From Branchiostoma floridae (lineage: Eukaryota > Chordata > Leptocardii > Amphioxiformes > Branchiostomatidae): a stretch of DNA of 64,000 nucleotides. The notes under the pieces were generated by a model. It was not told the origin of the DNA. It did no database searches and saw only the letters and a list, made by a program, of their open reading frames with translations. The position numbers were made by a program, and so were the translations under genes. The stretch is taken from the NCBI RefSeq assembly GCF_000003815.2, contig NC_049997.1, positions 6,163,204 through 6,227,203 on the forward strand, read 5' to 3'. Each line of letters begins with the position of its first letter. Within the stretch, counting starts at the first letter, position 1. Positions 13,447 through 58,461 of this stretch are shown here, one piece after another.

Positions 13447-13566
13447 GATTGCTTTTTCTCTCTCTCTCTTTATGCACACAGGTCGCATGAGAAGGAATAG
13501 ACAGAGACGTCGATACTGAGATTACTACTACTACTCCCACAGCAACCAGTCAACCAGCCAACAAAC
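13447..13566 (+). promoter_or_regulatory. Splice acceptor and 5'UTR part of the LRR-Ig coding exon
   Basis: A pyrimidine tract (TTTTTCTCTCTCTCTCTTTA) followed by TGCACACAG ends at 13481, so the exon probably starts at 13482. This leaves 85 bp of 5'UTR before the ATG at 13567. A non-coding first exon and the promoter must therefore lie further upstream; neither was identified. Confidence 0.65.
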
Positions 13567-20738: not shown

Positions 20739-20958
20739 GGGGGGGGGGGGGGGCTTCATGCACTCATGCGTTTATATTCAAGTCCGTTTGAGATCCGTGT
20801 GGAGTGGAAGTTTTATCCTCTACCAGGCTCCATAGGTCGCTGGAGAAATAGTAGAAATTGGACAAATACAGCCAGATGACATGCCAGCAGAATGAGCTAG
20901 TTGCAAACCATACCCTTGGGACAGCTGACTCTTTTGGCACGTTATGCATGCCTGCAAA

Positions 20959-22005
20959 GTTGGTGTGTCACGCCGAAGGGCGGTTATACCGACTATATAG
21001 GCACAGATACAGAAGCTGGTGTGTTACGCCGAAGGGCGGTTATACCGGCTATATACATACAGATACAGAAGCTGGTGTGTTACGCCGAAGGGCGGTTATA
21101 CCGGCTATATACATACAGATACAGAAGCTGGTGTGTTACGCCTAAGGGCGGTTATACCGGCTATATAGGTACAGATACAGAAGCTGCTGTGTTACGCCGA
21201 AGGGCGGTTATACCGGCTATATAGGTACAGATACAGAAGCTGGTGTGTTACGCCGAAGGGTGGTTATACCGGCTATATAGATACAGATACAGAAGCTGGT
21301 GTGTTACGCCGAAGGGCGGTTATACTGGCCATATAGATACAGATACAGAAGCTGGTGTGTTACGCCGAAGGGTGGTTATACCGGCTATATAGATACAGAT
21401 ACAGAAGCTGGTGTGTTACGCCGAAGGGCGGTTATACTGGCCATATAGATACAGATACAGAAGCTGATGTGTTACACCGAAGGCTGGTTATACCGTCTAT
21501 ATGGTCCTATATAGATACAGATACAGAAGCTGGTGTGTTACGCCGAAGGGCGGTTATACCGGCTATATAGGTACAGATACATAAGCTGGTGTGTTACGCC
21601 GAAGGGTGGTTATACTGGCCATATAGATACAGATACACAAGCTGGTGTGTTACGCAGAAGGGTGGTTATACCTGCTATATAGATACAGATACAGAGGCTG
21701 GTGTGTTACGCCTAAGGGCGGTTATACCGGCTATATAGATACAGATACAGAAGCTGGTGTGTTACACCGAAGGGCGGTTATACCGGCTATATGGATACAG
21801 ATACAGAACTTCGTCAGAAGCTGGTGTGTTACGCCGAAGGGTGGTTATACCGTCTATATGGTCCTATATAGATACAGATACAGAAGCTGGTGTGTTACGC
21901 CGAAGGGCGGTTATACCGGCTATATGGATACAGATAAAGAAGTTGGTGTGTTACGCCGAAGGGCGGTTATACCGGCTATATAGGTACAGATGCAGATACT
22001 CGCAC
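20959..22005 (+). repeat. 56-bp minisatellite array, forward, about 18 copies
   Basis: Units start GCTGGTGTGTTACGCCGAAG and continue GGCGGTTATACCGGCTATAT, then AGATACAGATACAGAA; starts at 21015 and 21071 give a 56-bp period. Variants include an inserted GTCCTATATAGA and copies with extra GATACA hexamers. Because 56 is not a multiple of three, the open frames seen across it cycle through all frames and are not genes. Confidence 0.95.
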
Positions 22006-22319
22006 ACGTAATCTAGTACACACTCCACGCTATACATACAATATTGAAAGGAGGCACAGTGAAAGGCCGTTAAGTGATGGATGTTTGACGTGCTAATGAA
22101 ATGATCGCGGTGTCGCCACAACGTGATGTCTGTAAACGAGTTCCTTCCGTGCTTAAGTCTAACGGCGATTCATCAGAACTGTTCTTACTTCGTGACATAT
22201 TGATTGATCGACGTATCGAACTGGAACATGATTGGTTGATTGGCTAATTGGAGAAGACGTTTGCTGGTTTCTTTTAAAACCCTTGTCTTGCTTAGTCCGT
22301 ATATATATATGGGATGCAC

Positions 22320-22865
22320 ATAGAAGAAGTTTATTGCGCAACAATCGTACACAGTACAATGTATGGCAAAAAAAGAAGAAACAAACTTATCATCCTAATT
22401 ACTAAAACAAGTCTCAAACTTAGTACATATGCAGTTTATGAATATAGAATGAAATTGGCATCCTAATTTCTAGAACAATAAGAGCTAGCCTAAATCATTG
22501 ATATTGTATTACAATTGAGTTGGTCTAATTATGAGTTTCGGCATTTTTTCTTATGACAAAGCAGTCTTTTATATATTTACCTATTTTAGCATTGTGGGAG
22601 TTGTTACATCTGAATATATAATCAAATCTGTCTGTATCGTTGAGTCTCTTAAATTTTTTTTGATTCGAGGAATGTGAATAACTCATTACGTGAAACATTG
22701 TACCTACTGCACATCATGACAAAGTGAAATTCATCTTCAATTTGCTTTGGACAAAATGGGCAACCTATATATATGATGCGTTTTCTTCTTGAACAACCCG
22801 TGACGTCACGTTATGCAGATAGAACAGTAGAGCTTTACAACCACGTCTACCAGCACAGATGAACT
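22320..22865 (-). mobile_element. 3' end of a non-LTR retrotransposon, broken
   Basis: Reading the minus strand, about 22760 to 22525 encodes the C-terminal tail of a reverse-transcriptase polyprotein. A Cys-rich start (GCPFCPKQIEDEFHFVMMCS) is followed by a frame break in an A-rich run, then KIGKYIKDCFVIR and a stop near 22525. The 3' UTR ends with GCAATAAACTTCTTC at about 22335. Related tails lie at 38.9 kb (+) and 39.6 kb (-). The copy is 5'-truncated and cannot be functional. Confidence 0.7.
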
Positions 22866-22869
22866 TTCA

Positions 22870-23170
22870 AGTTAAAATGACTTCTTGTCTCATGTTCATC
22901 AATACTATAATACAATAAATGAGCTACTCCTTCCGCTTTTGAGCATAATTCAGACCCACAGAAGCGCCAACATCCGGGGAAACCTCGGCACCTATTACTT
23001 TAGCTCGTCTCCACTGAGTTGCTCCGAGCCCGCAGCGGGATTAGACTGGCAGAACCAGAACACGGGGATGTCATGTTACAACATGGTGATATATATGAAC
23101 GTGTCATGGTGTAATCTGCCGCTGATACTAGCAAAGGATATTGAGTTACATGGGATCTTACACGACACAT
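22870..23170. other. Spacer between LINE tail and inverted array
   Basis: About 300 bp with no recognisable gene or repeat. Confidence 0.4.
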
Positions 23171-23175
23171 TATAG

Positions 23176-23600
23176 ATGTATCTGTATCTATGTAGCTGGT
23201 ATAAGCGCTCTTCGGTGCAACACATGAGCTTCTGTATCTGTGTCCGTGTAGCCGGTATAACGGCTCTTCGGTATAACACACCAACTTCGATATTTTTCTT
23301 TATCTGTATCTGTATAGCCGGTATAACCGCCCTTTGGAGTAATACACCAGCTTCTGTATCTGTATCTGTATAGCCGGTATAACCGCCCTTTGGAGTAACA
23401 CACCAGCTTCTGTATCTGTATCTGTATAGCCGGTATAACTTCCCTTTGGAGTAACACACCAGCTTCTGTATCTGTATCTGTATTTGTATAGCCGGTATAA
23501 CCGCCCTTTGGAGTAACACACCAGCTTCTGTATCTGTATCTGTATAGCCGGTATAACCGCCCTTTGGAGTAACACACCAGCTTTTGTACCTGCTTGTATA
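23176..23600 (-). repeat. 56-bp minisatellite array, reverse orientation, about 7 copies
   Basis: The same unit as the 20.96-22.0 kb array appears here as its reverse complement (TATAGCCGGTATAACCGCCC, then ACACACCAGCTTC), again with a 56-bp period (for example 23345 to 23401). The two arrays face each other across about 1.17 kb containing a LINE tail. Confidence 0.92.
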
Positions 23601-24940
23601 TCTAGTATAACCTATTGCGCTACAAATAAAAGAACACTTGTGATTTTCAGAGCTTACTAATGTAATTCCGGTGCGGAAGTCCCGGAAGCATCTCTCATAA
23701 AAACACTCGGCAAGCTCCCACCAGACGTATATAACATCAGCTTACAACCAAAGCGTCCCGCCGGCAGTTGTCGAGCGACACGGATATAATAACATCTGCC
23801 GACGCCTCCGCCGGAGTTACAGGGAACCAAATTGCTTTTTGGTGACCCGAAGGATCGACTGTAACCGGTTTTTCTCCCGTCTTGGATCAGACTTTTGTCT
23901 CCGTGTAAGCCCGAGTAAGTCTACACCAACCAAATTACTGTCGGCAAGGGTATCGTTACGGTTATGGTTATATTGTGTTGACATTTTTATATTCTGGTAA
24001 CGTAGACAGCTACTAAAAGTATGCTGTTATCTGGAAATGCTTCTAAAATTCCTACGACGCCAACGGCGTTATGATATAAGCTAGGTACCATCTAAAACGT
24101 ATGATCTTATAATGGTTATGGTTATATCATACTGCGTTTGTGTTTGGTACTCCAGTAGCGTAGTCAGCTACATATACTAAATTCAGAAGATCTGCTGTCG
24201 TCTGAGGCTATATAGTGCTATATCTACGACGAAATAGGTGCCAAGTCTTTAGTACGCCATATAAAATCTAATGATTATATCGTGTTAGTACGTTAAGCAT
24301 TAAAGCTGTAAAACTTGATTCGTACACAGCTACGGCCCTGGTAGGCTTAACTTATGATGCGATGGTCCTAGCAACATCATTTAGACTCATGGTCATGAAA
24401 TGGTTATATTTTGATATTCTATATGCTATAACGTATGTATACGTAGTCAGCAACCTGTAGCTCTCTGTAAGCTTCTTGAAAATATTGTCCATGTTTGATT
24501 GAGCTATCATACTTTGCTTCATGTATACGTTCAATTCACATCTTAACGACTTTATACGTCCTCCGACGTTCTGTAGAAATACCTAAAGAAAACTGATACC
24601 AAATAGCGACTTCTTGCAGAAATGAGCAGAACTGCAACTTTGTGATTATGGTACTTTGTTGAATTAATTTTTAAGCTCTGCTGTCTGTTATGAACACCCA
24701 AATTGCATAACATACATCGCAAAACTTCTAAATACCACTTTTTTGGGAATTTTGATCATTTCACTCCCTCAACACACAAACAGTGTAGGAACTAACGTAC
24801 ACACAAAAATAACAACATTGAAAACATCAAACGTAAGCATATTCATTTTTTACACACAGCACAACATTATCAAATCAAGGTATCTCTTTCATGGCATGAA
24901 TTCGGATAAATATCTCCAAGGTCAGACCACTTGCACACCG
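23601..24940. other. Intergenic DNA with three diverged repeats
   Basis: TGGTTATATT-TG followed within 60 bp by a GTAG-CAGC motif occurs near 23960, 24112 and 24395, suggesting old duplications. The GC-rich stretch 23740-23830 has no open frame of note. No gene is seen. Confidence 0.4.
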
Positions 24941-41920: not shown

Positions 41921-44900
41921 ATGGAGGCTGCACTGTTCACTGTTGTGATAGGAGCGGTCTTGTTGGCCGCGATTTTCTCCGGAGTGTGGTATCGGCGGCG
42001 GGGGAAAGGGCTGCTGCGGTTTCAAGGTATGTGTAGCACACGGCTTAAGCTTAAAACATAATTTTGTGTTGTAACGTTATACATGTTTTAGACAGTTTCG
42101 TGTAAAGTTTCAGTAACGTCAACCTTCATTATGCCGCTGAGTCACAGTCCGTCACATGAAAAAACGGTGGAAGAATGTTTTGAACACCTGGATATTTGAA
42201 GTCTGCATACCGAGGGATTACCCATGCTGCACTAGCAGACCTCTTTAATTAAACCAATTTTAAGGTTTTTACACTTACCGTTTTCAATGTGTCGATCTTA
42301 TAGGGTACATAATGTTGAGGTTTGACCTTATATTTGTTAGACAAAAATACATTTTGTATGTGTAGCATGCTGCAGATTGTTCAAGATACGCATTTGTGGA
42401 TAGAAAAATATCAAATTTACTACACTAGACAATGCAGTATGCAATTTTATTTCAAAACATACATTGTTATCAAACAGAGGGTACCTATTAATTGGGCCAA
42501 TGGTTTCCGAATAACGGTAGATGCTATATAGGGAGATGCTATATAGCCCAAGGCTGTCAATGTAGGTTAGGAGTACAGCAGTTAACTGCTTAGTTAAGAA
42601 GCCAGTTAATTGCACAACGGATAACTGCACACTTCTGTTAATTGCACGAAATCCCAAAGTCCCGTAGTGATGTGGTCCAGCTGAATAACTTCGCTTTGTT
42701 GCACAATCCGGATAATTGCTCAAAATGTGCTGGCAAATGGGGAGTGCAATTAAACGGCTTCTACTGTACCCTCCAAGCAGAGGTCGAGTCGCGGAGACAT
42801 ACGAGGAGCGCGCCTGTAAATTTCCCGACTACTACAGCTGTATCTCCGCGACTCAACCTCTGCTTGCAGAGTAGACTAGGAGACGCATAAGAAGATGTTA
42901 AGAGTGTTTCATTTGTGAGTCGGTTTTCTTTTAGAATGCTATATATACTAACCACCCTGACAGCTTATGTTTTGTGGAATCGGTATATCTATATTTTGAA
43001 TGAGGTCAATGTTGTAACGTTTAATAAGCCATAAAAAAAACTAATAAAACCGTAATTTAGTGCCTGTCGCGTAACACAGTGTTTTGTGTACACATCAGGT
43101 AGCGGCACTTCCGGGTTGGTATTGTGTACATGCGTGACTCTCTCTAAATGATTCATGCTACGTGGAAAGTACCGAAAGGGGAAGGGGATTCCCCGCTAGA
43201 CGGAATGAAAGGGAAAGTGATGACATCATTTCTTTCGGTCATGGTTACAAATCTCATCATATGTTTAACCCTATTCAGACCGGGGGGGGGGGGGGGCTTT
43301 TGAGGCCTGCGCCAACTTCGATGTCCTATAACGCCAGAACGCCTTACGCTAAAGCCACCAAATTTGGTGAGTTTTCCTAAAATATTGTTGGCAACAATTT
43401 TACGAAGTTTGACAAATTTTCCATTTTTTCGTGTTGCCATGGCAACGTTTGCTGACAGGCAGTTTTGCCAAAAATCACAATTTTTGGTTCTAACAATGTA
43501 TTTTTCACATTTATTTGCTATATTACTGCTATTTTGTTACATAAATAAAATCTTATATTATTCAGCATATCTTTCATAATTATATATGCATAAATTATGC
43601 TAATTTGATGACGTCATCAGCCCAAAATCCAAGATGGCGGACCGTATGGCCAGATCAAGAATAACAAGCTAATTATCCCTTAAAATTTGTAACTACCTAG
43701 TATTTCTTCATCAAAAACCATCTAAATGAATGAATTTAATCTATTTCCATTGCCCTTTGTGATTATTTGTTGCCAAAAAAGTAGTTTTAAAAATTCAAGG
43801 TGGTGGATATTATATGGCGGAGCCTAACTCGTATCTTAGGTGTGCATGACGTCATTTTATGACGTCATTATGACGTCATCGATGTTGCTATTGGCAATAC
43901 AAGTCATAATAAACATTATTATTCTGTTATCTGCACTTGTTGTTACATTTTTGTAGTATAACTTGAAGTTTTCTGAGAATAACCTTTTTTCATGGGTCCG
44001 GCCAATATAATCAATTTGATGACGTCATAATTACGTCATCTTACGTCAACGTAACGTCAAACGTCAAGTACTCGTCAGATATTATGTCGATATCATGTCC
44101 TAACAATTTGGTGGCCCTACGGCACGCCGTTCATGAGTTAGAGGACTTAGAAGTGGAGGGCCTCAAAAGCCACCCCCCCCCCCCCCCCCGTCCAGGGATG
44201 ACCAAAAAAACCCGGTCTGAATAGGGTTAATCTCCAAACAGATGTTGGGTGAAAGATCACATTTTCTGACGGCCGGGCTTCTCTTAAATCAATAATATTG
44301 CAACATTTTACCTCACATCTTCTTGAAGATACCGTCGCATCTATTTATGTACTTAAAGGGGCATTCCACTCCAGAAGGGGGTGGTGTTTTCCAATAGATA
44401 ATGTGTCAGTGAATACATAATCAGCTGAATTTTTTGGAATTCGGCTTGGGATGAATTGCGCGATGTGTCTTTTGTAAAACAATATGACACTCACTAAATC
44501 CATGCAGACCCTACCCAGGCATTCCCTATACGTATAGACACTTTGTTTATCGTGCATATTTTTGGAATAAATGAGGATCGCTAAGCACGCCGAGAAGGCA
44601 AATTGCAAATAAGATACCAAAGAACACATAAGAAAACGAGATTTCTTAGCGATCCTGAATTAGTTTTGTAACCTTACCTAAAAGATTTGCATTGTATTTA
44701 GCCATAGGATTAATTAGATTAGAGGGTACTTGGGGAGTTAAGTAGAAGACTGAATGCTTTTGAGGCACGTGGAGCAACTGGATACTTTATTATATAATGT
44801 GAAGTAGTATGCATTTATTACTTTCTAAAATTAATATCTATCGGAAAATAACACTTCCGTGTGGAGTGGAATGCCCCTTTAATATGTCCTCTTCAGACAG

Positions 44901-47900
44901 CTGGGTGACCCGTCAACGTTTAAAAGTTGATTTCAAGGGGCCCAGCATACATGTAAACAGAAAAAGTCGTGTTACATTCAGTCAAATGAAGAAAATTTTA
45001 ATAAAACATCAATCAGTGGATAAAAGAAGTCTAACGCTTCAAAACAAAATCATTGTCCATTTTTCATTACTCAAAGTCTATAACTAGTTAATATAAAACA
45101 CGCTTGTAATAAAAACCCAAATATCATGCTAAGCTTATGAAACAGTACAGTCAATTCTATATACAGTCAAACCTGTCTATAGCGGCCACTCAAGGGACTA
45201 GAGAAATATGGCCACTATAGACAGGTGGCCACTATAGAGAAAATGTTGATCAATTGACCATAAGCAAGCTACACATGATTTCAATTCCCACTAATCTTTC
45301 TCACCAAGTAACATTGTCTCGATCGGTAAATTCACCGACAAAGATTTGCACTTTAATGCTCAAGGCATGCATACCTTCTGCTACCGCCAAAATGACCCTG
45401 TCAGGAACTCCAAATCCTCGCAAACTACAATTTCAAACTCGGTACAGGGTGACATAAGGCTGCAATATGGTTGCAATGGCATTGTTTCTGTATCAACGGG
45501 ACCGGAAATCGTGTGGCCGTGGCCGCGTTGGACAGGTGGCCGCTAAGCCTATTTCTTAATCATTACGAATCCAAGGGACCGACAAAAAGTGGCCACCATG
45601 GCCAAGTGGCTGCTATGCAAAGGGGGCCGCTAATACAGGTTTGACTGTATTGTATGATGATGAACCATAAACTTATGATGATCAATAGATGCTAATAATT
45701 TATAAAACGCCATGAGATGATAGAAAAACCGTCGCATCTACATAAAAGCATGCGTATCATTGTAAAATGACAGAAAACTCAGACATCATATCAAGCGTAT
45801 GACACAGCGGCACAATTCATTGTAATATTGATATGAACATAATTATCCACTGCTTCACTTTCAAAAAAAGAACATGTACGTATAAAGGTTCCAGCCAAGT
45901 GAACAATCTTTTTGTTGATTATAACAATTCTTTATGTTCAACTGTGTGCTGGATTTCCAGATCACAAAGTAACAAACATTCTGCCACAAATACTGTATTC
46001 TCAAGATTAAGGCACTGAGTGGAGATTGTGACTGATATTAGATTTGTATTATCTACGACGTTATAGATAAATCTGACCCATGAAGTCAACTTATGCTTGA
46101 AAAGACACAGAACGCACAAAACAAAACGCACAAAAACTCACAAAACATACTAAAAGTAACTCCTTATCATTGAAGGTATGATTTAAACGACAACAAAGCA
46201 CACAAAACGTCAAAAATCCGTTTTTATCTATGAAATTCGTTGAGCGATCTGTCAATGGGCTTATCCCCAAACCCCGCTCCCTGTTCGATCATGGTTCTAT
46301 TTCGAACGCTTACGACAAAAATAGCCATTTCTGTCCCGCTGTGGCAGTTTTTGACGGAGGTGTTCGAAATAGAAAAGGGGGTTCTATTTGTTCGATATGG
46401 CGTTCGATGGGATCGGTCCATTATTTGCTCGCCCTGCTGTCATAGCCGCTAGTGAAAAGGGAGCGTAATTGAGACTTTTGGTCGCTCAATGATTTAACCT
46501 CAGTTGAGCTCGTGAAGGCTCAATCCAAATGTAAACTTAAGTCGCTCAAGCAGAGAAGTGTTCCTTTCTGATGGCGTATGCACAATATCCCATATATTGG
46601 GAGGGTCCTCCATACTTAGGTGCGGAAAGAAAACTTCTTTTAATACTAGATTCATGTTAGTACCATGATCGTTAATGTCTTGATGCAATGAGGAGGGAGA
46701 AACTACATAGATGAGAGAATGGTTCTTTACAAGCTTCTCGGCTTGGTACAAAGTTTCCAACTCACTGAAAAGAACATCGGTTGGCGCACCTGCTAGATCA
46801 TGCAAATGAACCTCAGGACCTTCGTTGCCATTGGTCGCTTGTTGTACCACGTGACCAACGTTCTTATTGGTTGTTTGGTTGCCATGGATACCGAGTAAAT
46901 GTTGGGGTGGCATGTACGTGTGAAAATAGAAGATGTGCACTTTTTGTGTAGCGTTTTGCTGCCGCACTAGATGATGCAGGTGCAGTAAGGAAGGAACGAT
47001 TCCGCCTTGGTGCATAGCTCCAAAGAGAACACCACAGAAAACGTTACCGACTACAAATCCGACAAAAAGGAGTTTCTTTAACTTGCCTCCCGCCCAGCTG
47101 ATCTTGTTGTGATGGGCCAACACAAGAGGAAGGAGACACGGGGTGATGAACCTGGGTTCTTGGTGGGCGATTAAGGACAAGATGAAGATAGGAATAAAGT
47201 AGGATAGAAGGAAGAACATCTCAAAGTCAACGCCTTTTCCACAAGGGATTCGGGACAACATTTTAGTGTCATCAGCAGTTCTTTTTACTTGTCGTTTTTG
47301 GTGGGATTCATTTGAAGGTGCCTGAAGTTTGCTCTTTATTTGCGCTTTATTTTCACCTTCTTTAAAATGACCGAACAGTTTTGTGACACAAGCGGGGATG
47401 TTTGCAAACGCAAGGACGGCCAGGACACCAAACGAGAGTGGGGTGTTCACAAGGAGGTGAGTCATTCTTGGGTGCAAACCATGGTCCTTGACCTTGGACA
47501 TGTCCATGTTGTACCTTAAGAAGTTCAAAGGAGTGACAGTGAGGTTTTGAAGAAGACTTGAGGGTGACTGAAGGAATGTGTTCACAGTTAAGGAGTGGAC
47601 ATCGAGAGAGCCGAAATAAACGGAGTCACAGACGACAAAGATTATAACTGTCACTACTGCTCCTGGTACTAATTGTAATGCTTTTAAAGCCCCCTCCTTT
47701 AACCTCCACCCTTTGCTGTTGTAGAATGTCCAGTACAGCATCGGTACCAGAGCAAAGGCAGGGAATGTTGGACGATTGAAAACTCCTACTACGATCAGCG
47801 CTGACAACGGAACCGAATGAGAATTAGAAGAATGTTTCTCATGAACTAAATCGGAAGGTTTTTCACCTTTTTCATTTCTGGTTTTATGTTTTGGGCTGCT

Positions 47901-50900
47901 GCTTAAAGGGTCTCTGCCTTTGATAGAGTCGACAACAAGAGCAAGAACGCCTGCAAAAAGAACAGCTTCAAGCGTGTTGGAAAACGTTCGAGTGAAAAAG
48001 ACAAGCGTCACATAACAGGCTGAATACACAGCAAGACAATTGAATCCATCCATTTCCCCACCCATATACTTTCTCTCGCCACCGTTACAAACTCTCCACA
48101 GACAATAGTCTACGAAGAATGAGAGAACCATTGTCCAAAGCCTTGGTGCAATCAGTAGAGTGTATGCGCTGAGAAGTTCAGGCAGTGACCCTAAATAGTT
48201 GATGATCTTCAGAACCAGGAAAGGTATACCCGAGGTGAGAAAGGGTAGGACAGGAGACCGGATAGGAAGGTCTTCTGTCCACTCCCACGTCAGGCGCACC
48301 TTGTAGTTCAGAACCGTTCCTGTGAATGCAAAGAACAGAACATCTTGATTTGATGAGCATTGCACGTACTGCGTGTATGGGAACTTTGTTGACATGTATT
48401 ATGCAATGTTTCTTATATAATGTGGCGTAACAATACCAAGAAAACGAGACGGAGTATCAAAACACAACAAATTTTCGCTTTTTCAGTCTGTTCTTTTCAC
48501 GTTTAACTAATGTTTCCGCATACAAATGTGAGTAAAAAAATAGAACTATTAATGCATTTTGTACCATGCATGTGAAGACTATGTGTATAGACAGTACCTC
48601 TGTTATCTATTTTGTCTGACCCTTAATTTTTCCCTTATGATCTCAGTGAAAAGCTGTCTGCGGGCCGACTGTACCTTTCAAGAACAAAGGTTCGAACAAA
48701 CAAAAAATACACATTTTCACTGGGGTTCACCGTCCACTATGGCGGTCAATGCCTACGCCATAGCCACGTGATTGCAAACACCATATAAGGTGATCCTGAC
48801 CTGCCATGACCTCCGGAGCCTGGAAGAACTCGTCCGGGTGGATGTAACCCGACTGGGGCAGCAGAACCAAGGTCACACGGAGCACTGCCAAGGTCAACCA
48901 GACGGTTCGTGCTTCCATCGTGGAACAATCTTTATTGACAATGACAATGATCATTATTGCATATCCATGCCCAAACATGGGGAAAATACATTCAGTTTTA
49001 TAGATAATGCAAGGAGGTTCCCTCTTTCAACCTCCTTGGATAATGTATGTAGAAATGTAGAAAGAAACGTCATTTTACGTCGATGAAGGTTAGACATTCA
49101 GGTAATAACATACGCCAAATAATAACTACTTAAGCAACTGGATATGATTTGGGAAACGGTCAGACGTTTCAGATAGTATCCGCTATCTCTCGTCAGTTAT
49201 ACTGAAGAGCAATCTCCAAGCAGATCCTACGGTGCCATATAAGACAGTATCAAAGCCGGCCAAGAAGTATAGCCGGCCAAATAGATTCTTCTTGACCCTA
49301 GCTGCTATCGGCCAAGTAAAGCTAAACTAGCAACAAAATGGCCTTGGGATTTGTTAACCATTGATAGATAAGTTTACATTGGACGCCCAAAGATTTGCCT
49401 TGTGTCACATCCATTACTGTACTCTCTCGTATATAGTGTTAATTTCTGGTTCTAAAAGTATCTACCAAACTCTCCTTTTGCAAACCATAGCGAACGTACC
49501 ATACCTGTATCTGGTCCCAAGCACAAACAGCAGATGTATGAACGTGTAATAAGCTGGCCTTCTCACCTTGAACCTAGTCACCTTGTCACAGTTAGGTTCG
49601 AATCCGATGCAGCCGCCTGTGGTGTATCCTACAGAAAGACGCTTTGCAACTTCTGTATTCCCTCACTCGACTCAGGTGAAAATAAGTTCTCGACGATGTT
49701 CAGGGCGTCTTACCGGTCTACTGTATTCCCTCACTCGGCTCAGGAGAAAATAACGACGATGTTCAGGGCGTCTTCTAGGAGGGGACGTAGAGGTCAGTTC
49801 TGTAAGGAGAGCCACACCTCAAGCGCGTTGAAGTTCCTTGTTAGAAAGAGTTGGGGTCCTTCCCGGTGTGACTGGTTCAAACCTGACAGTTTAAACTTAC
49901 GCCGCTTGTACGCACTGTGTTACACCGAAGGGTGGTGTATCGGTTGTGCGAAAATCCACAAGCGTCTCCCTTAATTACCTTTCCTATGCCTTTTCCCCAC
50001 GCCAATTCACCACGTCTTTTCAATGATTGACTACCGATTAGTAGGGACAGTACGCGTATTGTGACGTGGTCCTGTGGTTAGGTGCACGTGGTTATTGACT
50101 TAGAAACCAAAGGTCGAATCCCTTGCAGATGCCATAGCTGTACTAAAGGTAGTGTCCAAGAAGACGTGTCAGCTGGATAGGGACAAATAAGTTACCATGG
50201 CATTTCAGTCTGTCTTTGCAGGTTTTTCCTGACCGATTTTTCTTACACGTATTGACTGTCACTTGTTGAATGACATTCACATTCCCTTACACAACCACAC
50301 TCGTGTAGTCTGTAACAATATTCACACGTCATTAAACAACGGGTAGAACGATTTATTATTCTTGTAGCTGTTTTGGGTGTCTTTTGTATGAATATCCTAC
50401 ATAATAACAAATGCGTGTGTGTGTGGGGGCATATGGAATTTATGTGTGTGTTTGGTTATGTGTGTGTGTGTGTGTGTGTGTGATTGTGTGGCTCTATGTG
50501 TGTGATTGTGTTTGTGATTGTGTGTGTGTGTGACTGTGTGTGAGTGAGTGTATTGTTAACAGTTCTTGTCTCTCGCTGCACATGCGTTATTCAAATAACG
50601 AACCTCCCTACATATAACGTATGATCATTGATATTGAAGCGTTTACCTGATTGGTAGATCACACATGACGTAGATGATGACGTATGATTTCTACGTTGCA
50701 GACGAAAGTACTTACAGAAGAAGAGAACCTGGCAGCCACCATGGTTCCAAATCACTTACCAGAGAAAATGGGCACACTGAGGAAGATGTTCTTGAGCAAG
50801 AATATTCATTAGAACGTCTTCAAGATGGAGCTGGCCAGTGCGTAAGACAAGTTGAAGGTCAAGACTTGGAAGATGTGACAGAAACAAAAGGTAATTCGTA

Positions 50901-53900
50901 TTCGTTTCTTCATTTTTGTTTTAGGAACTTTGGTTTCACTAAGCAAGGAGCTTTCTTGCACTAAGGGAATTCGGAAAGGGAATGAAAGTTTTAGAAACGG
51001 TCTCCGGTTCAATTAGATGCTCCACTTCTGATTTTTAGAAGGAGAGGACCAAACACATTCGATCTGATTCGCTGTGTATAAAATATTACACCTGTAACGA
51101 TGGATGACACTTTGTCTTACTCAGGAGCCATATCTGACATAGGTGACGTAGGAACAGGGATACAGTCTTTCAACTACGTCACTGACTCCACCAACGTCAA
51201 CATCCTCAACGTGGGCGCCCACTCCGTGGTGCATTATGGGATACCTGAAGAACAACCACCTGTCGGTAGGTTGGACTGTTCCATTTGGAAACTTGACGGG
51301 GGTCGATTTGATTATTTTACAAATCCAAACAAAGGCGGTAGAACGATTTCACTATGTGATAATGGATGCACTGTTGGTGCATATAGCTTTGTCTTAGTTT
51401 GTTTCTAGTCTTTTTTATTTCCTCCATTTTCTTAAAATTTGTACAATGTGTAGAGGAGAGGTTCATATTTATATGCACACATTGCTTTCTGCATTCACAA
51501 GAGATTTCGTAGCGTAGAGGTTACAATCAGACAAAATCACCGACTCCATCGTTAAGGATCGGAGTCTCTGTCAATAGAGATCGAAGTTGAAAATTTCTGA
51601 CTGTGTTTTACACGCACAGAAAAACATATGGACTCCTACCAGGAGCTCTACTGATAGAATCAGTTATTGGACTGGTTGTATTTGCAATTGATTTTGATCG
51701 CGATTTCTGTTGATAAAAACTTTCAGTTACTCACGTAGAAGCCAGTTAATTGCACAGCGGATTATTGTACACTTCTGTTTATTGCACGGAATCCCAAAAT
51801 ACCAAACCGATGCGGTCCAGCTGAATAACTTCGCATTGTTGCACCATTAGAATAATTGCACGAAATACACTGGCGAAATCGACATGCAATTAAACAGCTC
51901 CTTCTCTTTTCATTTTTTTTTTTAGAAGAAGATATATGACGTATATGGATTCGGTGAAAATGAAGAACTTTCTATTTCTTTTTGTTCCACCTTAGAACAC
52001 GAGGATCCTATCCCCGTTCTGTGCATCGTGCACAAGCCGGTTGGTCCAATCCTGTCCACCCGTAGAAGGTCACGTGATCCGGACCCCAAGGCAGACTGTC
52101 GTCTATTGGTCGGCGTCAAGCATGACGTCAGCAGTAATGAGCTCATGGCCTTGTCCTTCAGCGAGAACCTGTCGAACGGCATTGTGGGAACGGATATCAA
52201 TGACCCGGTAAGTCTTGAGTTTAGACAAGGAGGTTAAAAAAAAAAAAACCCTCCTAGGTTTAGACCAGTGTGTGAAAAGCTAAGTTTGTTTAGCGGGAGA
52301 AAGTTTGTCATAATATCGTTTTTGGCATTGAAGTAAGAACAGTTTCCTTGCAAATAAAGGAAACGTTCCACTGCGATACTTGTACTAGTACTTTTCTCTA
52401 AGCAGGTGTAATGATCCGCCTCATTCTCATTGTTTTTCGTCTTATTTTGTGTAACATTAAAAACTCTTTTCTAGTACTGAACATTTTAACAGTAACCCTC
52501 AGTTTCTACAATATATCCTTTGTTTATTATTTCCACAGTCGCGCCAGTATCTTATAGATTTGACTTCCATCAGTAACATGTCTACTGATGACCACTGCGA
52601 CAGACCCTCCCGGTGTCTGTACTGCCCTTTAGTCCCTGACCCGTCACAAATCACACTCACCAGAAACGTCTGCGGCTTCTGGCTACGATTCTTCGGACCA
52701 GCCACCACCTTCGACGTATCCTTGGGCCTCCGAGTCGCCAAACTTCGGAGCGACGACGACACGTTGCCGAAAACACCCGAACACACGACGACCGATTCGG
52801 AGACCATAGAACTCGTTGACGAAGTTACGATCAGCATCGAAACGTGCAGCGTGCGCAGGAGACGAAAAAACAACTCAGAAAGAGAAGTCAGGGACGAAGA
52901 TGGCGAAGTTCGGAAGGCTACAAGATGGAAAGATGTTTGGATCCGTGGATCGAAAGAGGTGACAGACAGCTCAGGTGACCTCGTTCCCAGAGTGATGAAT
53001 CGGACAAAACGAACAGGTGAGTAGACTTTCTTTTTACTATAGGCTGCGACAATTGTGCAAATATTTCACAGATGGTCAGATCGCTCAATGAATTTACGAG
53101 AAAAAAACACGATTTTATATGTTTTGTCATCATTTATTACCTTTTTACCATATAAAGTAAAGGGTTACACAAATTCCTTTCTGGTCGCTGCACGGTCACT
53201 TAGCAATCGCCGTGTAGTTAGTAAAAAGGAGACCTAAAGGACACTATGTTGAAAAAACAAGCTTCTATTATATATATATAAATACCATAGCATATTGATT
53301 TTGTATGACGATATGAAATAATGTCTTTTGCTTCACAGGCAGCCTCAAGACGAAATCGTATGGTCAGATCTTGGGTCGTCTGGAAATGTTGGGGGAAGAG
53401 GGTAAGAGCAAATTAAGACTCTTAGTACATGAATTGCTGTTGGTAAATAAAGGCGATAATTTTGAATATTTTTATAATTCTGAAACCATACATTAGTCGC
53501 TGTGGCATCATTTAGTCTTGATTGTCAAATCTTCTGAAAACAAACATACTTTGTCGTCTTTTATGCCTAACGTTTTTTGGTATAGTGTTAAACGCTATCA
53601 CGTTTGCTCTTGGCTTTGTATACGTATGAACCTTGTGTATGCCGTTTGCATTTTGTGAGTCTGCCACTACCAGCCCAAAGCCGCCTAGGCAGACCCATGC
53701 AATGAGTTGTTTTAATGTCAATAAAGAAAGAAAGAAAGAAAATACAGAGACCTGGAACTATAAAAAAACGTAATGGCAAGAAATGTTTTACAGGGAACTG
53801 GGCAGAATTTGACTATTTCTCCGCTCATCTGGTGAAAACATACGAGCGGAAAGATGTGGACTTGTACCTAGTGGTCGCGTTGGAGGTGAGCAGTTTTACT

Positions 53901-56900
53901 TTTTAGGATCTAATTGTTGAGTATGTTCCTCCTGAAACACACATAACCAACTTCCGTATGCAAGTAGATAAACCCTGTTGTATAAGCTCCATTTTAGTAT
54001 ATGTAAGGCTGTAACATAAAGCAAGAAGAACTGTAACTATACAACTGCTTGGTCATTATTACCTTTACTTAACCGATAAAAGAATAGATGTGCAGTAAAG
54101 GTCTTTCATTCGCTAATTCAGTCATTTGTTGATCCATTCGTTCGTTCATTTTCTAAAATTCTCACGCACATTTGGCATCCACAGCAAGCCTTTGCGGAGT
54201 ACTACAAGCGTAACCTCGGTGCAGCGGTGACCATCACCAAAGGTGCACTGAAGACGCTGAAGAAGAGGCCAGCCGACAACACCAACATGCTGGCCGGGCG
54301 CGCGTACTACCTGCTCTCCGCTATCTACCAGGTAGCCCGGAAGTACGGAGTGGCCGAGAGGTGTATGGAGCACGCACAGCAGGTGGGGTATACCAACATT
54401 AGGAACCTAATGATGACGGTCTGGGAGGGTTTGAGACGGGCTCTGGTGGCCTACAAGGGTTTGAAACTGTTTATTTTTAAGACGGTCTGTAAGGGTTCGG
54501 GTCGGTCTGTGAGGGCATGGGACGGTGTCAGACGTTTGGAATTGTTTGACTCGGACGGTCTGGAACGATTTGGGATGGGCTCGGACGGTTTGGAATGGTT
54601 TTGAACGGATTGGACTGTTTGAAATACTAGTAGTTAGGGACGGCCTGGGACGGTTTGGGACGGTCTGCGAGGGTTTGGGACGGGGTCTAGGACAGTTTTG
54701 GAATGGTTTGGGTCGCGATCGGACGGTCTTGTAGGGTTTGGGACGAAGCCGAACGCTTTGAAATGGTTTGGGACGGAGCCGGACGCTTTGCAAGGGTTTG
54801 GGACGGGGTAGGACGCTTTTGGAATAGCTTGGGATGGGCTCGGACGCTTTGGGAGAGTTTGGGACGGGGCCGGACGCTTTGGGAGAGTTTGGGACGGGGC
54901 CGAACGCTTTGGAAGGGTTTGGGACGGGGCCGGACGCTTTGGAATGGTTTGGAACGGGGCCGGACGCTTTAGAATGGTTTGGGACGGGGTCGGACGCTTT
55001 GGGAGGGTTTGGGACGGGGTCGGACGCTTTGGGAGAGTTTGGGACGGGGCCGGACGCTTTGGGAGGGTTTGGGACGGGGCCGGACGCTTTGGGCGGGTTT
55101 GGGACTGGGCCGGACGCTTTGGGAGAGTTTGGGACGGGGCCGAACGCTTTGGGAGGGTTTGGGACGGGGCCGGACGCTTTGGGAGAGTTTGGGACGGGGC
55201 CGGACGCTTTGGGAGGGTTTGGGACGGGGCCGGACGCTTTGCAAGTGTTTGGGACGGGCAGGACGCTTTGAAATGGTTTGGGACGGGGACGGACGCTTTG
55301 GAATGGTTTGGGACGGGGTCGGACGCTTTGGAATGGTTTGGGACGGGGCAGGACGCTTTGGAATAGTTTGGGACGGGGCCGGACGCTTTGGAATGGTTTG
55401 GGACGGGGCCGGACGCTTTGGGAGGGTTTGGGACGGGGCCGGACGCTTTGGAATGGTTTGGGACGGGGCCGGACGCTTTGCAAGTGTTTGGGACGGGGCC
55501 GAACGCTTTGGAATGGTTTGGGACGGGGCCGTACGCTTTGGGAGGGTTTGGGACGGGGCCGGACGCTTTGAAATAGTTTGGGACGGGCTCGGACGGTCTG
55601 GGGGAGTTTGGGACGGGGCCAGACGCTTTGGGAGGGTTTGGGACGGGGCCGGACGCTTTGGAATGGTTTGGGACGGGTCCGGACGCTTTGGAATGGTTTG
55701 GGACGGGGTCGGACGCTTTGGGAGGGTTTGGGACGGGGTCGGACGCTTTGGGAGGATTTGGGACGGGGTCGGACGCTTTGGGAGGGTTTGGGACGGGGTC
55801 GGACGCTTTGGGAGGGTTTGGGACGGGGTCGGACGCTTTGGGAGAGTTTGGGACGGGGCCGGACGCTTTGGGAGAGTTTGGGACGGGGCCGGACGCTTTG
55901 GGAGAGTTTGGGACGGGGCAGGGCGCTTTGGGAGGGTTTGGGACGGGGCCGGACGCTTTGGGAGGTTTTGGGACGCGGCCGGACGCTTTGGGTGGGTTTG
56001 GGACTGGGCCGGACGCTTTGGGGGGAGGGGGGTGGTTGGGACGGGGCCGGACGCTTTGGAATAATTTGGGACGGGGTCGGCATCCGAAGCTATTAGAATG
56101 CTTCAATTTTAGAGAGTTGCCATTGTTGTATTCTTTTAACAATTTAAAACAAAAGTTTCATTCTTATTTCTACAGGCTTTGTCAGACTTTGAGATCGGCG
56201 AGGATACAGGTAACGCCTGTTACAACAAAGGATCCCTGTACACTGACATCATAGCGAACGATAGCTGCCCTTCAGACAGGATGTTCGATGAGGTAATAGA
56301 ACATTATATAGAACAATGGTCCATTGAATGGAACTTTATATAGAACAATAAAACATCAAATAGATCAGAACACCTGACAACAATAGAACATTACGTAGAA
56401 CATTAGAGAATAGAACAATTCTAACCTGGCTCCATCGTCCATGGCGACAGTGTCTTTTCTTTTGTATGGAGGCTTCAAAACAGAAAACATGTTGAATTCC
56501 TTCTTTTGATCCTTACAAACGTATGATTTGAGATGGCGTAAATTCAAGTACACCAACTCAATATATTCCTTTGGGTATCAAAAACATTTCCACAGAATCT
56601 TAGTAAATTCATACCATGATAACGGGCTCTTTTTACTGTGACGATGATTTAAAAAAAGTTCGGACTCGACTAGCAGACAACCTTTTCCGGTTACAATATT
56701 CGCAAGTTAGTATAACTCCATTTCTGGAATAAAACTTTTACTTAAAAAGCCAAATAACTCTTAAGGTTTAATTGTCCTGTTTTTAAGGTCCGAGAAAGCC
56801 TAGAGTTGGCGATCTGCCATTGGCGGAAGGACCCCTCGGGGTGCGTGGCCCACCAGAGGCGAGCTCACACGAAGTTGGCTTCGGCTCTCCTCGTCTGCGA

Positions 56901-57291
56901 CACCCAGCAAGGTCGGGCACGAAACGTCAACCCGAGAAATGTCGAGGCCGCCCGAAGGAGCATCGAGACGGTTCGCAAGGAGTTGTGGCAGGGGATGCCG
57001 AAGCGAGGGCGATGTCGCTTTCTTCTGACCGAGTCGGATCTGTACTACAGAGAAGAGGGCTTCACCCTCTCACAGGAGAAGGCCCACGAAGCGCGGAATC
57101 TTGCTACGCAGTGCGGGTTCAAACTTGAAGCAGAAATGGCGGATCAGCGATTGGTGCATCTTGCCAGTTGCCAACGCTCACCAGTTCCGACACGTACCAC
57201 AAGTCAGCTGCTGAACGGCGTCACACTGGCCGATTCGACTATGGGGTCATCCATGGCTTCTCGGGACTCTTCATCTGAACAACTAGGATAA
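41921..57291 (+). CDS. Membrane-anchored TPR-like protein, ten exons, 699 aa
   Basis: Coding exons are 41921-42026, 50702-50890, 51125-51265, 51996-52207, 52539-53016, 53339-53401, 53794-53885, 54185-54382, 56176-56292 and 56788-57291. All nine introns are GT-AG and every junction phase agrees, giving 2100 coding bases. Residues 6-24 form a hydrophobic helix followed by RRRGKG, predicting a signal anchor with the bulk in the cytosol. Residues 36-145 are acidic and low-complexity. Residues 146-375 form an unrecognised domain with a Cys cluster ([13 protein letters not shown]). From about 397 to 675 the sequence is helical and TPR-like ([38 protein letters not shown]). Similar TPR tails occur, from memory, in uncharacterised lancelet and mollusc proteins. 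Function is unknown. Its first intron hosts PIGZ on the other strand. Confidence 0.8.
42598..42770. mobile_element. MITE copy 1 (relative at 51.73 kb)
   Basis: Inverted ends AGAAGCCAGTTAATTGCAC and GTGCAATTAAACGGCTTCT flank about 135 bp. The same element occurs at 51731-51906 with roughly 80% identity by eye. Both copies are in introns of the TPR gene, in the same orientation. Confidence 0.75.
42773..42866. repeat. Hairpin with about 27-bp arms
   Basis: The arm at 42773-42799 (CCAAGCAGAGGTCGAGTCGC, then GGAGACA) pairs with 42839-42866 with few mismatches across a loop of about 40 bp. It adjoins MITE copy 1. It could be a small foldback transposon or an RNA hairpin. Confidence 0.7.
43269..44226. 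mobile_element. piggyBac-like MITE, 958 bp, TTAA-flanked
   Basis: The ends CCCTATTCAGACCGGG and its reverse complement CCCGGTCTGAATAGGG are flanked by TTAA (43265-43268 and 44227-44230), the target duplication of piggyBac transposons, with the usual CCC/GGG termini. Sub-terminal sequence also pairs, including long G and C runs and GGCTTTTGAGGCC-like arms. Inside are five perfect TGACGTCA sites (43609, 43847, 43860, 43871, 44020) and AAGATGGCGG, a YY1-type motif, at 43631. No transposase is encoded. Confidence 0.82.
44357..44878. mobile_element. TTAA-flanked MITE, 522 bp
   Basis: AGGGGCATTCCACTCCA at 44357 is matched in reverse complement at the right end (TGGAGTGGAATGCCCCT to 44878). TTAA flanks both sides (44353-44356 and 44879-44882). 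Pairing extends imperfectly inward through GTGTTTTCC-ATAGAT. It belongs to a TTAA-targeting family different from the preceding element. No transposase is encoded. Confidence 0.8.
44885..45075. repeat. Dispersed repeat, relative at 19.5 kb
   Basis: AAAAGTTGATTTCAAGGGGC followed by GTGTTACATTCAGTCAAATG resembles 19520-19600. The class is unknown. Confidence 0.5.
45164..45647. mobile_element. TA-flanked MITE with CAGTCAAACCTG ends
   Basis: CAGTCAAACCTGTCTATAGC (45164) and its counterpart ending CAGGTTTGACTG (45647) are inverted and flanked by TA on both sides, consistent with Tc1/mariner-pogo mobilisation. The interior repeats GTGGCCACTATAGA and CCAAGTGGCTGC motifs. A truncated relative lies at 62925-63044 in a TAF8 intron. 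Confidence 0.75.
46242..46423. mobile_element. Palindromic MITE, second copy of the 33.4-kb family
   Basis: GTTCTATTTCGAACGCTTAC and TTTTTGACGGAGGTGTTCGA form inner arms, and GATCGGTCCATTA forms the right end. It is oriented opposite to the 33403-33573 copy and ends 75 bp from the PIGZ stop codon. Confidence 0.75.
46500..48918 (-). CDS. PIGZ: GPI mannosyltransferase 4 (PIGZ/SMP3), two exons
   Basis: PIGZ adds the fourth, side-branch mannose to the GPI-anchor precursor in the ER membrane (GT22 family). Exon 1 is 48801-48918 and exon 2 is 46500-48343. Joining them in phase 1 gives EVMA-D-VLFF and a 653-aa protein. Near the N-terminus is the family motif HPDEFFQ (residues 27-33). The body is a multi-pass membrane protein with [21 protein letters not shown] and [11 protein letters not shown] followed by [12 protein letters not shown], blocks I associate with PIGZ rather than PIGB, ALG9 or ALG12. 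It is longer than the human protein (about 580 aa) owing to two hydrophilic loop insertions. An in-frame upstream ATG at 48978 exists; I chose 48918 because it places the first helix and HPDE as in the family. The whole gene lies in intron 1 of the TPR gene, antisense to it. The intron acceptor has a weak pyrimidine tract. Confidence 0.9.
48919..50070. other. PIGZ upstream region within TPR intron 1
   Basis: This probably holds the PIGZ promoter, but no TATA box stands out. A dispersed repeat (49082-49215, relative at 19.2 kb) and a fragment of the 56-bp unit (49917-49945) are present. An open frame at 49534-49974 (+) has no recognised product. Confidence 0.4.
50071..50180 (+). mobile_element. 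Possible tRNA-derived SINE
   Basis: GTGGTTAGGTGCACGTGG followed about 30 bp later by GGTCGAATCCC (50112-50122) resembles degenerate A and B boxes of RNA polymerase III. A GTGTCC phrase lies downstream. It is weaker than the element at 25.48 kb. Confidence 0.35.
50409..50555. repeat. TG-rich microsatellite
   Basis: Interrupted (TG)n runs on the + strand, lying 150 bp before exon 2 of the TPR gene. Confidence 0.9.
51731..51906. mobile_element. MITE copy 2 (relative at 42.6 kb)
   Basis: It has the same inverted ends (AGAAGCCAGTTAATTGCAC … GCAATTAAACAGCTCCTTCT) and interior (GGTCCAGCTGAATAACTTCG) as 42598-42770. It lies in intron 3, 90 bp before exon 4. Confidence 0.75.
53480..53755 (+). mobile_element. 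Retroelement 3' end with GAAA tail
   Basis: The segment ends GTCAATAAAGAAAGAAAGAA, a poly-purine tail typical of non-LTR retrotransposons or SINEs. It is preceded by CCGCCTAGGCAGACCCATGC. It lies in intron 6, ending just before exon 7. The 5' part is missing or unrecognised. Confidence 0.5.
54400..56082 (+). repeat. 30-bp G-rich minisatellite filling intron 8
   Basis: The unit is GGTTTGGGACGGGGCCGGAC plus GCTTTGGGAG (30 bp), regular from about 54760 to 56075 (roughly 44 copies) and degenerate before that. Main variants swap GGGAGGG for GGAATGG and GGGGCC for GGGGTC. Since 30 is a multiple of three and stop-free, long open frames (up to 558 codons on the minus strand and 361 on the plus) run through it; these are artefacts. 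GGGAGGGTTTGGGACGGGG fits a G-quadruplex motif on the transcribed RNA strand of the TPR gene. Confidence 0.95.
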
Positions 57292-58236: not shown

Positions 58237-58461
58237 TCATTGTCCAGTTCCTTCCTTTTGACCCTGTTCTTTTGGCTGTTCTTCTTGAGTCCTCGTCGTC
58301 TCTTCTTCTTTTTCTGTTTCCCCATCGGCTGTAGATGTGGAGCTGGGTGCATTCTGAAGTTCCTCTCTTCTGTACTTTTCCAGCAGCGGTCTGTAGATGT
58401 ACAGTCCTGTTAGCCATCCAAGGCTTAACACTGCTGCTATCTCCAGCTTACCAAGCCGCAT
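58237..58461 (-). CDS. 74-aa membrane microprotein, PIGBOS1-like
   Basis: The protein starts MRLGKLEIAAVLSLGWLTGL, continues YIYRPLLEKYRRE and ends in a long acidic-basic hydrophilic tail. One N-terminal helix (about residues 6-22) followed by G-x-YI-x-x-P-x-x-E-x-Y matches, without gaps, the core I recall for PIGBOS1, an outer-mitochondrial-membrane microprotein linked to the unfolded protein response. SMIM20/MITRAC7 is an alternative with a similar RPL..EEYKKE block. A 5'UTR intron is likely: donor GTAAGG after 58968 and acceptor CTCTTTTTCAG before 58568. The gene is tail-to-tail with the TPR gene and head-to-head with TAF8. That it is coding is likely; the orthology is tentative. Confidence 0.6.
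   Translation of the reverse strand: MRLGKLEIAAVLSLGWLTGLYIYRPLLEKYRREELQNAPSSTSTADGETEKEEETTRTQEEQPKEQGQKEGTGQ

Follow-up and report, generated by a model that had tools for sequence, protein, structure and literature searches.

What kind of protein is encoded by a ten-exon gene of the lancelet Branchiostoma floridae, and does this gene represent an undescribed system, for which a first-pass annotation had named it the best candidate? The gene lies in a window of 64,000 nucleotides, the whole stretch of DNA that was analysed, and it probably encodes a membrane-tethered scaffold protein of a small family. The term undescribed system is overstated, as what is seen is a single gene of a small TPR family and not a system. 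Judged from its sequence, the gene taken as one unit represents a variant of this known kind, with a middle part that resembles nothing in the sources searched.

The ten exons proposed for the gene hold on re-assembly, giving a protein of 699 residues with nine GT-AG introns and phases that agree throughout. The exons, together with the features that lie within introns 1 and 8, are as follows.

41921 to 42026, plus strand: exon 1, start codon and hydrophobic anchor at residues 4-22
46500 to 48918, minus strand: GPI mannosyltransferase gene in intron 1, presumably PIGZ-like, with the ATG of its first exon at 48918 and a main exon that spans 46500 to about 48398
50702 to 50890, plus strand: exon 2, charged linker, without codon-usage support
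51125 to 51265, plus strand: exon 3, RHIM-like stretch at residues 122-137, a lead only
51996 to 52207, plus strand: exon 4, residues 146-216, opening part of the unmatched middle region
52539 to 53016, plus strand: exon 5, residues 217-375, remainder of the middle region including the Cys cluster at 234-246
53339 to 53401, plus strand: exon 6, where the sequence in common with the C12 paralog begins
53794 to 53885, plus strand: exon 7, TPR-family region, with a phase-0 intron at its end that is also found in C12, C17 and C9a
54185 to 54382, plus strand: exon 8, TPR-family region, with phase-0 splice sites at both ends in all four paralogs compared
54658 to 56080, no strand: minisatellite in intron 8, about 47 copies of a 30-base unit
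56176 to 56292, plus strand: exon 9, TPR-family region
56788 to 57291, plus strand: exon 10, final TPR-family region and stop codon

Codon usage was compared with open frames sampled from the same non-coding DNA that supplied the background table. For exons 4, 5, 8, 9 and 10 no sampled non-coding frame scores equally high, and over exons 3 to 10 at most 2.25% do so. Exon 1 is borderline, with 6% of sampled frames scoring equally high, and for exon 2 there is no coding support (64%).

The C-terminus had been described as TPR-like, and this stands in part. Searched against the PDB, a profile built on seven of the family's sequences picks out chains of designed consensus TPRs, the best being CTPR-rv4 (E 0.0019) followed by CTPR390 (E 0.0027), with alignments to the designed chains that are short, 20 to 27 of 179 positions (20 and 26 for the two named), and with syntaxin-1A (E 0.33) and perforin-1 (E 3.8) also among the matches of the profile. 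Against this, the sole TPR model that Pfam reports on residues 376-660 is TPR_2, at 9.6 bits and E 1.5 under a cut-off of 27, and no TPR model reaches its curated cut-off on the 699-residue protein. The likeness to TPR solenoid scaffolds, as represented by the Pfam models and the designed chains, is confined to a short stretch matched by the family profile, whereas the repeats themselves are strongly diverged and lie under every TPR cut-off. On one of the C9 copies TPR_12 gives E 0.00038 and 21 bits, under its cut-off of 30.1. A single-sequence structure model of exon 10 has a mean pLDDT of 39.3, too low to speak for or against a TPR fold, and is the basis of no claim here.

It is apparent from similarity and intron positions that this C-terminal part belongs to a lancelet TPR family, with copies in the same genome on C12, C9 (two), C17 and, weakly, C1. 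The C12 copy is about 60% identical in exon 10, and introns 7/8 and 8/9, both of phase 0, are common to the copies on C12, C17 and C9. The relatives on C1 and C5 are more distant and consist of single long ORFs that lack these two introns. In the titles and abstract openings listed from the literature neither the gene nor the TPR family is named, which is no proof of absence from print.

In the relative on C17 the TPR exons are homologous and share their introns with this gene, the difference being that Death-domain ORFs lie upstream of these exons on the same strand, where the 699-residue protein matches in tblastn in its TPR region only. Two of these Death domains have E-values of 1.3e-13 and 5e-14, a third is recognised by similarity (E 3.5e-10), and the gap between the last Death ORF and the first TPR exon is about 4.6 kb. 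No match to the C17 Death domains was found in the stretches examined at five further loci of the family (C9, C9 at 9.58 Mb, C12, C1 and C5), and Pfam at a maximum E of 10 gives no Death, DED, CARD or TRADD-N domain in the 699-residue protein. By association only, the adjacency on C17 possibly points to cell-death or innate-immune signalling.

At the other end of the protein an N-terminal anchor had been proposed, and it is borne out as a hydrophobic stretch at residues 4-22 with a mean hydropathy of 2.51. This is the sole strong stretch of its kind, the 19-residue windows that start beyond residue 40 reaching no more than 0.95, and it is followed, still in exon 1, by RRRGKG, so that sequence and hydropathy together give the single N-terminal hydrophobic stretch with flanking positive charge that would be expected of a signal anchor. 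The start codon lies in GCCACCATGG, a context which we take to be Kozak-like.

Taken together, the preferred reading is of a single-pass, membrane-tethered TPR scaffold, most likely within a cell-death or innate-immune signalling complex, to which a probability of roughly 45% is given. The protein would be anchored at its N-terminus with its body in the cytosol, as positive charges follow the anchor, and the anchor would be succeeded by a charged linker, the middle region and a C-terminal TPR-like superhelix. The role of the TPR part may be to bind a partner, be it a peptide or a protein, and to keep this partner at a membrane. A cell-death or innate-immune complex is the most likely setting because of the kinship with the TPR exons that stand behind the C17 Death-domain ORFs. 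The first-pass annotation had suggested a membrane-tethered adaptor of unknown pathway; of this, the scaffold gains support as a TPR scaffold from the paralogs, the shared introns and the short match to consensus TPRs, the tether is plausible, with exon 1 as its sole source, and the pathway is slightly narrowed by the C17 relative.

The tether depends on the joining of exon 1 to exon 2, a predicted join across an intron of 8.7 kb. Just 5' of exon 2 there is an in-frame ATG at 50674 that reads into this exon and would allow an alternative, unanchored form. It could be that transcription begins near exon 2 and translation at this ATG, giving a soluble TPR protein for which exon 1 is unrelated or minor, and the borderline codon usage of exon 1 would fit with this, as would the length of intron 1 and the presence of another gene within it. 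The main ORF of that gene matches PF03901 at E 1e-49, and its first ORF does so at E 0.0022 and 17.7 bits, under the cut-off of 23.8. Yet exon 1 begins in a Kozak-like context, encodes the hydrophobic anchor and ends at a GT donor whose phase agrees, and besides the exon 2 ORF the four plus-strand ORFs of at least 90 residues in 42027-50701 include none that by eye suits as the next exon of another gene. A soluble protein is considered unlikely.

A second alternative would keep the anchor of the tethered scaffold but assign the signalling to exon 3, in which a diverged RHIM would polymerise in amyloid fashion with other lancelet RHIM proteins whilst the anchor carries the signal to the membrane. 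On a matrix built from two PDB and six lancelet RHIMs, residues 119-136 score 11.25, the highest in the protein (next 4.75), the same genome has RHIM ORFs with TRADD-N-like exons nearby, and the two C9 paralogs carry a similar NISNPVG(I/L)QI 5' of their TPR exons. However, equally high scores are reached by 12 of 45,918 18-mers from the background, a count that takes in the stretch itself, and by 131 of 2000 shuffled versions of exon 3, and a profile HMM of the same eight RHIMs lists five of seven queries, neither exon 3 nor the whole protein being among them. The core tetrad at residues 126-129 is LNVG and not (V/I)Q(V/I/L/C)G, by which the tetrad is defined in PMC9444067. Pfam's PF12721 gives no match at a maximum E of 10, a setting at which the HMMER filters remove most matches above 0.1, and searched across the genome it finds seven places, all elsewhere. 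Exon 3 has no PDB sequence match at E 10, and its match to DUF4528 in Pfam (E 0.19) is not taken as real. An N-terminal motif in common with the C1 and C5 copies appeared good by eye, but its profile ranks exon 3 just fifth in the protein, with the best match in exon 9. The likeness to RHIM proteins, such as RIPK1, RIPK3 and the lancelet ORFs, is one short, loosely similar stretch, whereas the protein departs from both the core tetrad and the Pfam model, and Pfam finds in it neither a kinase nor a Death, TIR or TRADD-N domain. After the tetrad, Pfam, background, shuffle and profile tests exon 3 is not accepted as a RHIM, and the polymerising adaptor is very unlikely.

The middle region, residues 146-375, had been thought to contain a Cys cluster and to belong to no family that could be recognised; the first point is confirmed, and the second holds within the searches made. 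The cluster is formed by 13 residues at 234-246, and searches of Pfam, of PDB sequences, of prokaryote contigs and of the remainder of its genome gave no relative of the region. Within that genome the region retrieves the two exons that encode it and, at E 8.6, a single further match, whilst in the prokaryote contigs none of 63 pattern matches was confirmed, the query being a single protein that reaches close relatives only. For the whole protein Pfam lists no family at a maximum E of 10, and none of four PDB matches at E 10 is considered real: three sulfotransferase chains (E 0.34-0.35, residues 206-273) and beta-dystroglycan (residues 7-43, E 0.7).

Such isolation, in its own genome and in prokaryote contigs, would also fit a lineage-specific duplicate that is decaying or seldom used and has no conserved role, and in the nearest copy, on C12, exon 9 is one base longer and contains in-frame stops. 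Here, though, each of the ten exons keeps an open frame in agreeing phase, and in most of them codon use is coding-like. Third codon positions account for over half of the differences from C12 (18, 14 and 42 at first, second and third positions in exon 8; 41, 27 and 87 in exon 10). Decay is given little probability.

Least probable of all is a wider reading in which the lancelet TPR set has swapped its N-terminal parts, be they Death domains, self-assembly motifs of a diverged RHIM-like or an asparagine-glycine-rich type or, here, a membrane anchor together with an orphan domain. A single TPR part would in this way serve several routes of higher-order assembly, and this gene would be the membrane-tethered, amyloid-type member.

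Should the family reading be false, this is an ordinary lineage-specific TPR gene. If true, recombination has placed one TPR part alongside differing signalling parts in lancelets, which would agree with the published view, as given in PMC2575513, that lancelet immunity was shaped by domain shuffling. The orphan middle region would then be a domain to define; by eye, it is rich in beta-type stretches.

The ten-exon TPR gene (41921..57291, plus strand) probably encodes a membrane-tethered TPR scaffold that belongs to a small lancelet gene family and carries an orphan middle region. The first-pass annotation, which had proposed a 699-residue membrane-anchored TPR protein with a novel middle domain, is largely sound, whilst its suggestion of an undescribed system goes beyond the evidence. 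The ten exons it described are present at the stated positions with matching phases, separated by nine GT-AG introns. Together they encode 699 residues, and the protein used as query is identical to the translation of the spliced window DNA. The window lies at C19:6163204-6227203 in a genome of 513 Mb in 431 contigs, and holds the following further features:

13501-16074: one uninterrupted ORF, at most 857 residues long, carrying leucine-rich repeats (LRR) and an immunoglobulin domain
46500-48918, minus strand: PIGZ-like gene, lying within intron 1 of the TPR gene and assigned by Pfam to the Alg9-like family PF03901 only (main ORF E 1e-49; first ORF E 0.0022, below cut-off)
58237-58461, minus strand: PIGBOS1-like ORF of 74 residues (PF23670, E 3.1e-5, 24.5 bits, cut-off 27)
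60266 to about 63213: TAF8-like gene, exons joined by eye (Bromo_TP E 6.7e-24, TAF8_C E 2.7e-7)

The first of these also has a membrane-type hydrophobic stretch, judged by eye, and at 20855-23741 there are tandem-repeat-like ORFs on both strands in which a GGYTGY-type peptide recurs.

The codon table used to score the exons was built from the LRR and PIGZ-like ORFs of the window. Against open frames sampled from the window's non-coding DNA, which had also supplied the background table, exons 4, 5, 8, 9 and 10 outscore every frame (n=400, 219, 400, 400 and 127 respectively), frames scoring as high amount to 2.25% for exon 3, 2.0% for exon 6 and 1.5% for exon 7 (n=400), and exon 1 stands at 6%. 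Exon 2 stands at 64% and is therefore without coding support in this test. Intron 8 contains a 30-base minisatellite of about 47 copies (54658-56080) in which several frames are open on either strand.

The middle region (residues 146-375), a putative folded domain with a Cys cluster that may bind metal, counts as an orphan on the searches made. No Pfam family was listed for it at a maximum E of 10, with most matches above 0.1 dropped by filters, its own genome returned its own two exons and one match at E 8.6, and none of 63 pattern matches in prokaryote contigs was confirmed. Among PDB sequences the whole protein has four matches within E 10, none better than E 0.34. Around the closest paralog, on contig C12, no counterpart of the middle region was found in 28 kb (E 0.05) or in 19 kb (E 1).

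The C-terminal part is likely, on sequence comparison, to be TPR. Residues 376-660 match only TPR_2 in Pfam (9.6 bits, E 1.5), and a C9 copy matches TPR_12 at E 0.00038, its 21 bits falling short of the 30.1 cut-off. A seven-member family profile has nine matches in the PDB, headed by designed consensus TPR chains at E 0.0019 and 0.0027, which cover just 20 and 26 of 179 profile positions; behind them come further designed repeats, syntaxin-1A (E 0.33) and two chains of perforin-1 (E 3.8). An AlphaFold model of exon 10 from a single sequence has a mean pLDDT of 39.3, too low to speak for or against a TPR fold.

Genome-wide the whole protein has at least 17 matches at E 1, those listed comprising ten in the gene itself, three on C12, two on C9 and one each on C17 and C1, the C1 match having E 0.445 genome-wide and 5e-5 within the fetched C1 stretch. 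With a C9 copy as query, C9:9.58 Mb (E 1.6e-5, 0.045) and C5 (E 0.031) also match in part. Exon 8 has phase-0 splice sites at both ends in the same places in all five genes compared (window, C12, C17 and the two C9 paralogs, C9a and C9b), and the end of exon 7 is readable in four of them, that of C9b entering masked sequence. Counted by codon position, the window and C12 genes differ at 18/14/42 sites in exon 8 (25 codons synonymous, 24 non-synonymous) and at 41/27/87 in exon 10 (55 and 47); between C9a and C9b exon 8 has 24/18/43 (18 and 34). This third-position excess is what one expects from selection at the protein level. C12 exon 9 (C12:14272354-14272533; stretches L016 and L019) is one base longer than its window counterpart and has in-frame stops, thus the C12 copy is either broken in the assembly or misassembled. 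Related single ORFs of at least 200 residues number five on C1 and one on C5 in the fetched stretches, a second C5 ORF being partly masked. At C1:19127001-19154000 and C5:4286001-4304000 (L025, L043, L044, L047, L048) single-ORF TPR genes stand in tandem, their N-termini bearing a motif rich in asparagine and glycine, for example GDGNITVTAGSGSTIII, of which one gene seems by eye to have three copies.

Residues 4-22 form the single outstanding hydrophobic stretch (mean hydropathy 2.51; windows that begin beyond residue 40 reach at most 0.95) and are followed by RRRGKG. Positive charges mark the cytosolic side of a membrane, the positive-inside rule, which would put the protein body on that side. 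The putative join of exon 1 to exon 2 crosses the 8.7 kb of intron 1, and with an ATG at 50674 reading in frame into exon 2, the protein may also occur unanchored.

On C17, two ORFs on the strand of the TPR exons match Pfam Death (E 1.3e-13 and 5e-14) and a third resembles one of them (E 3.5e-10), the first TPR exon following about 4.6 kb downstream of the last. The Death ORFs and the TPR exons may belong to a single gene. The stretches from C9 (both places), C12, C1 and C5 gave no match to these domains at E 0.05; any pathway inferred from them thus stands on one family locus.

A RHIM-like stretch in exon 3 is a lead of low weight. Residues 119-136 are the top 18-mer of the protein (11.25, runner-up 4.75) against a matrix built from two PDB and six lancelet RHIMs, a score reached by 12 of 45,918 18-mers in window ORFs of at least 30 residues, the stretch itself counted, and by 131 of 2000 shuffled versions of exon 3. 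A profile HMM built from these eight RHIMs does not report it, the Pfam RHIM model does not match the protein, and with a profile of seven C1/C5 N-terminal motifs it ranks fifth within the protein. The defining RHIM tetrad given in PMC9444067 is (V/I)-Q-(V/I/L/C)-G, whereas that of the window protein is LNVG. Elsewhere, at L034 (C135:205710), L035 (C148:162951) and L036 (C11:2599959), a TRADD-N-like exon is preceded within 3 kb by tandem RHIM motifs on its own strand; the main text of PMC8195603 does not mention RHIM. PF20694 has no match on L035 and is below cut-off on L034 (E 0.0065, the query having an invented prefix) and L036 (E 0.0021). PF12721 matches the excised stretches of L034 (E 8.5e-7), L035 (1.4e-7; 0.0033 on the whole ORF, below cut-off) and L036 (0.0015 with one motif as query, below cut-off).
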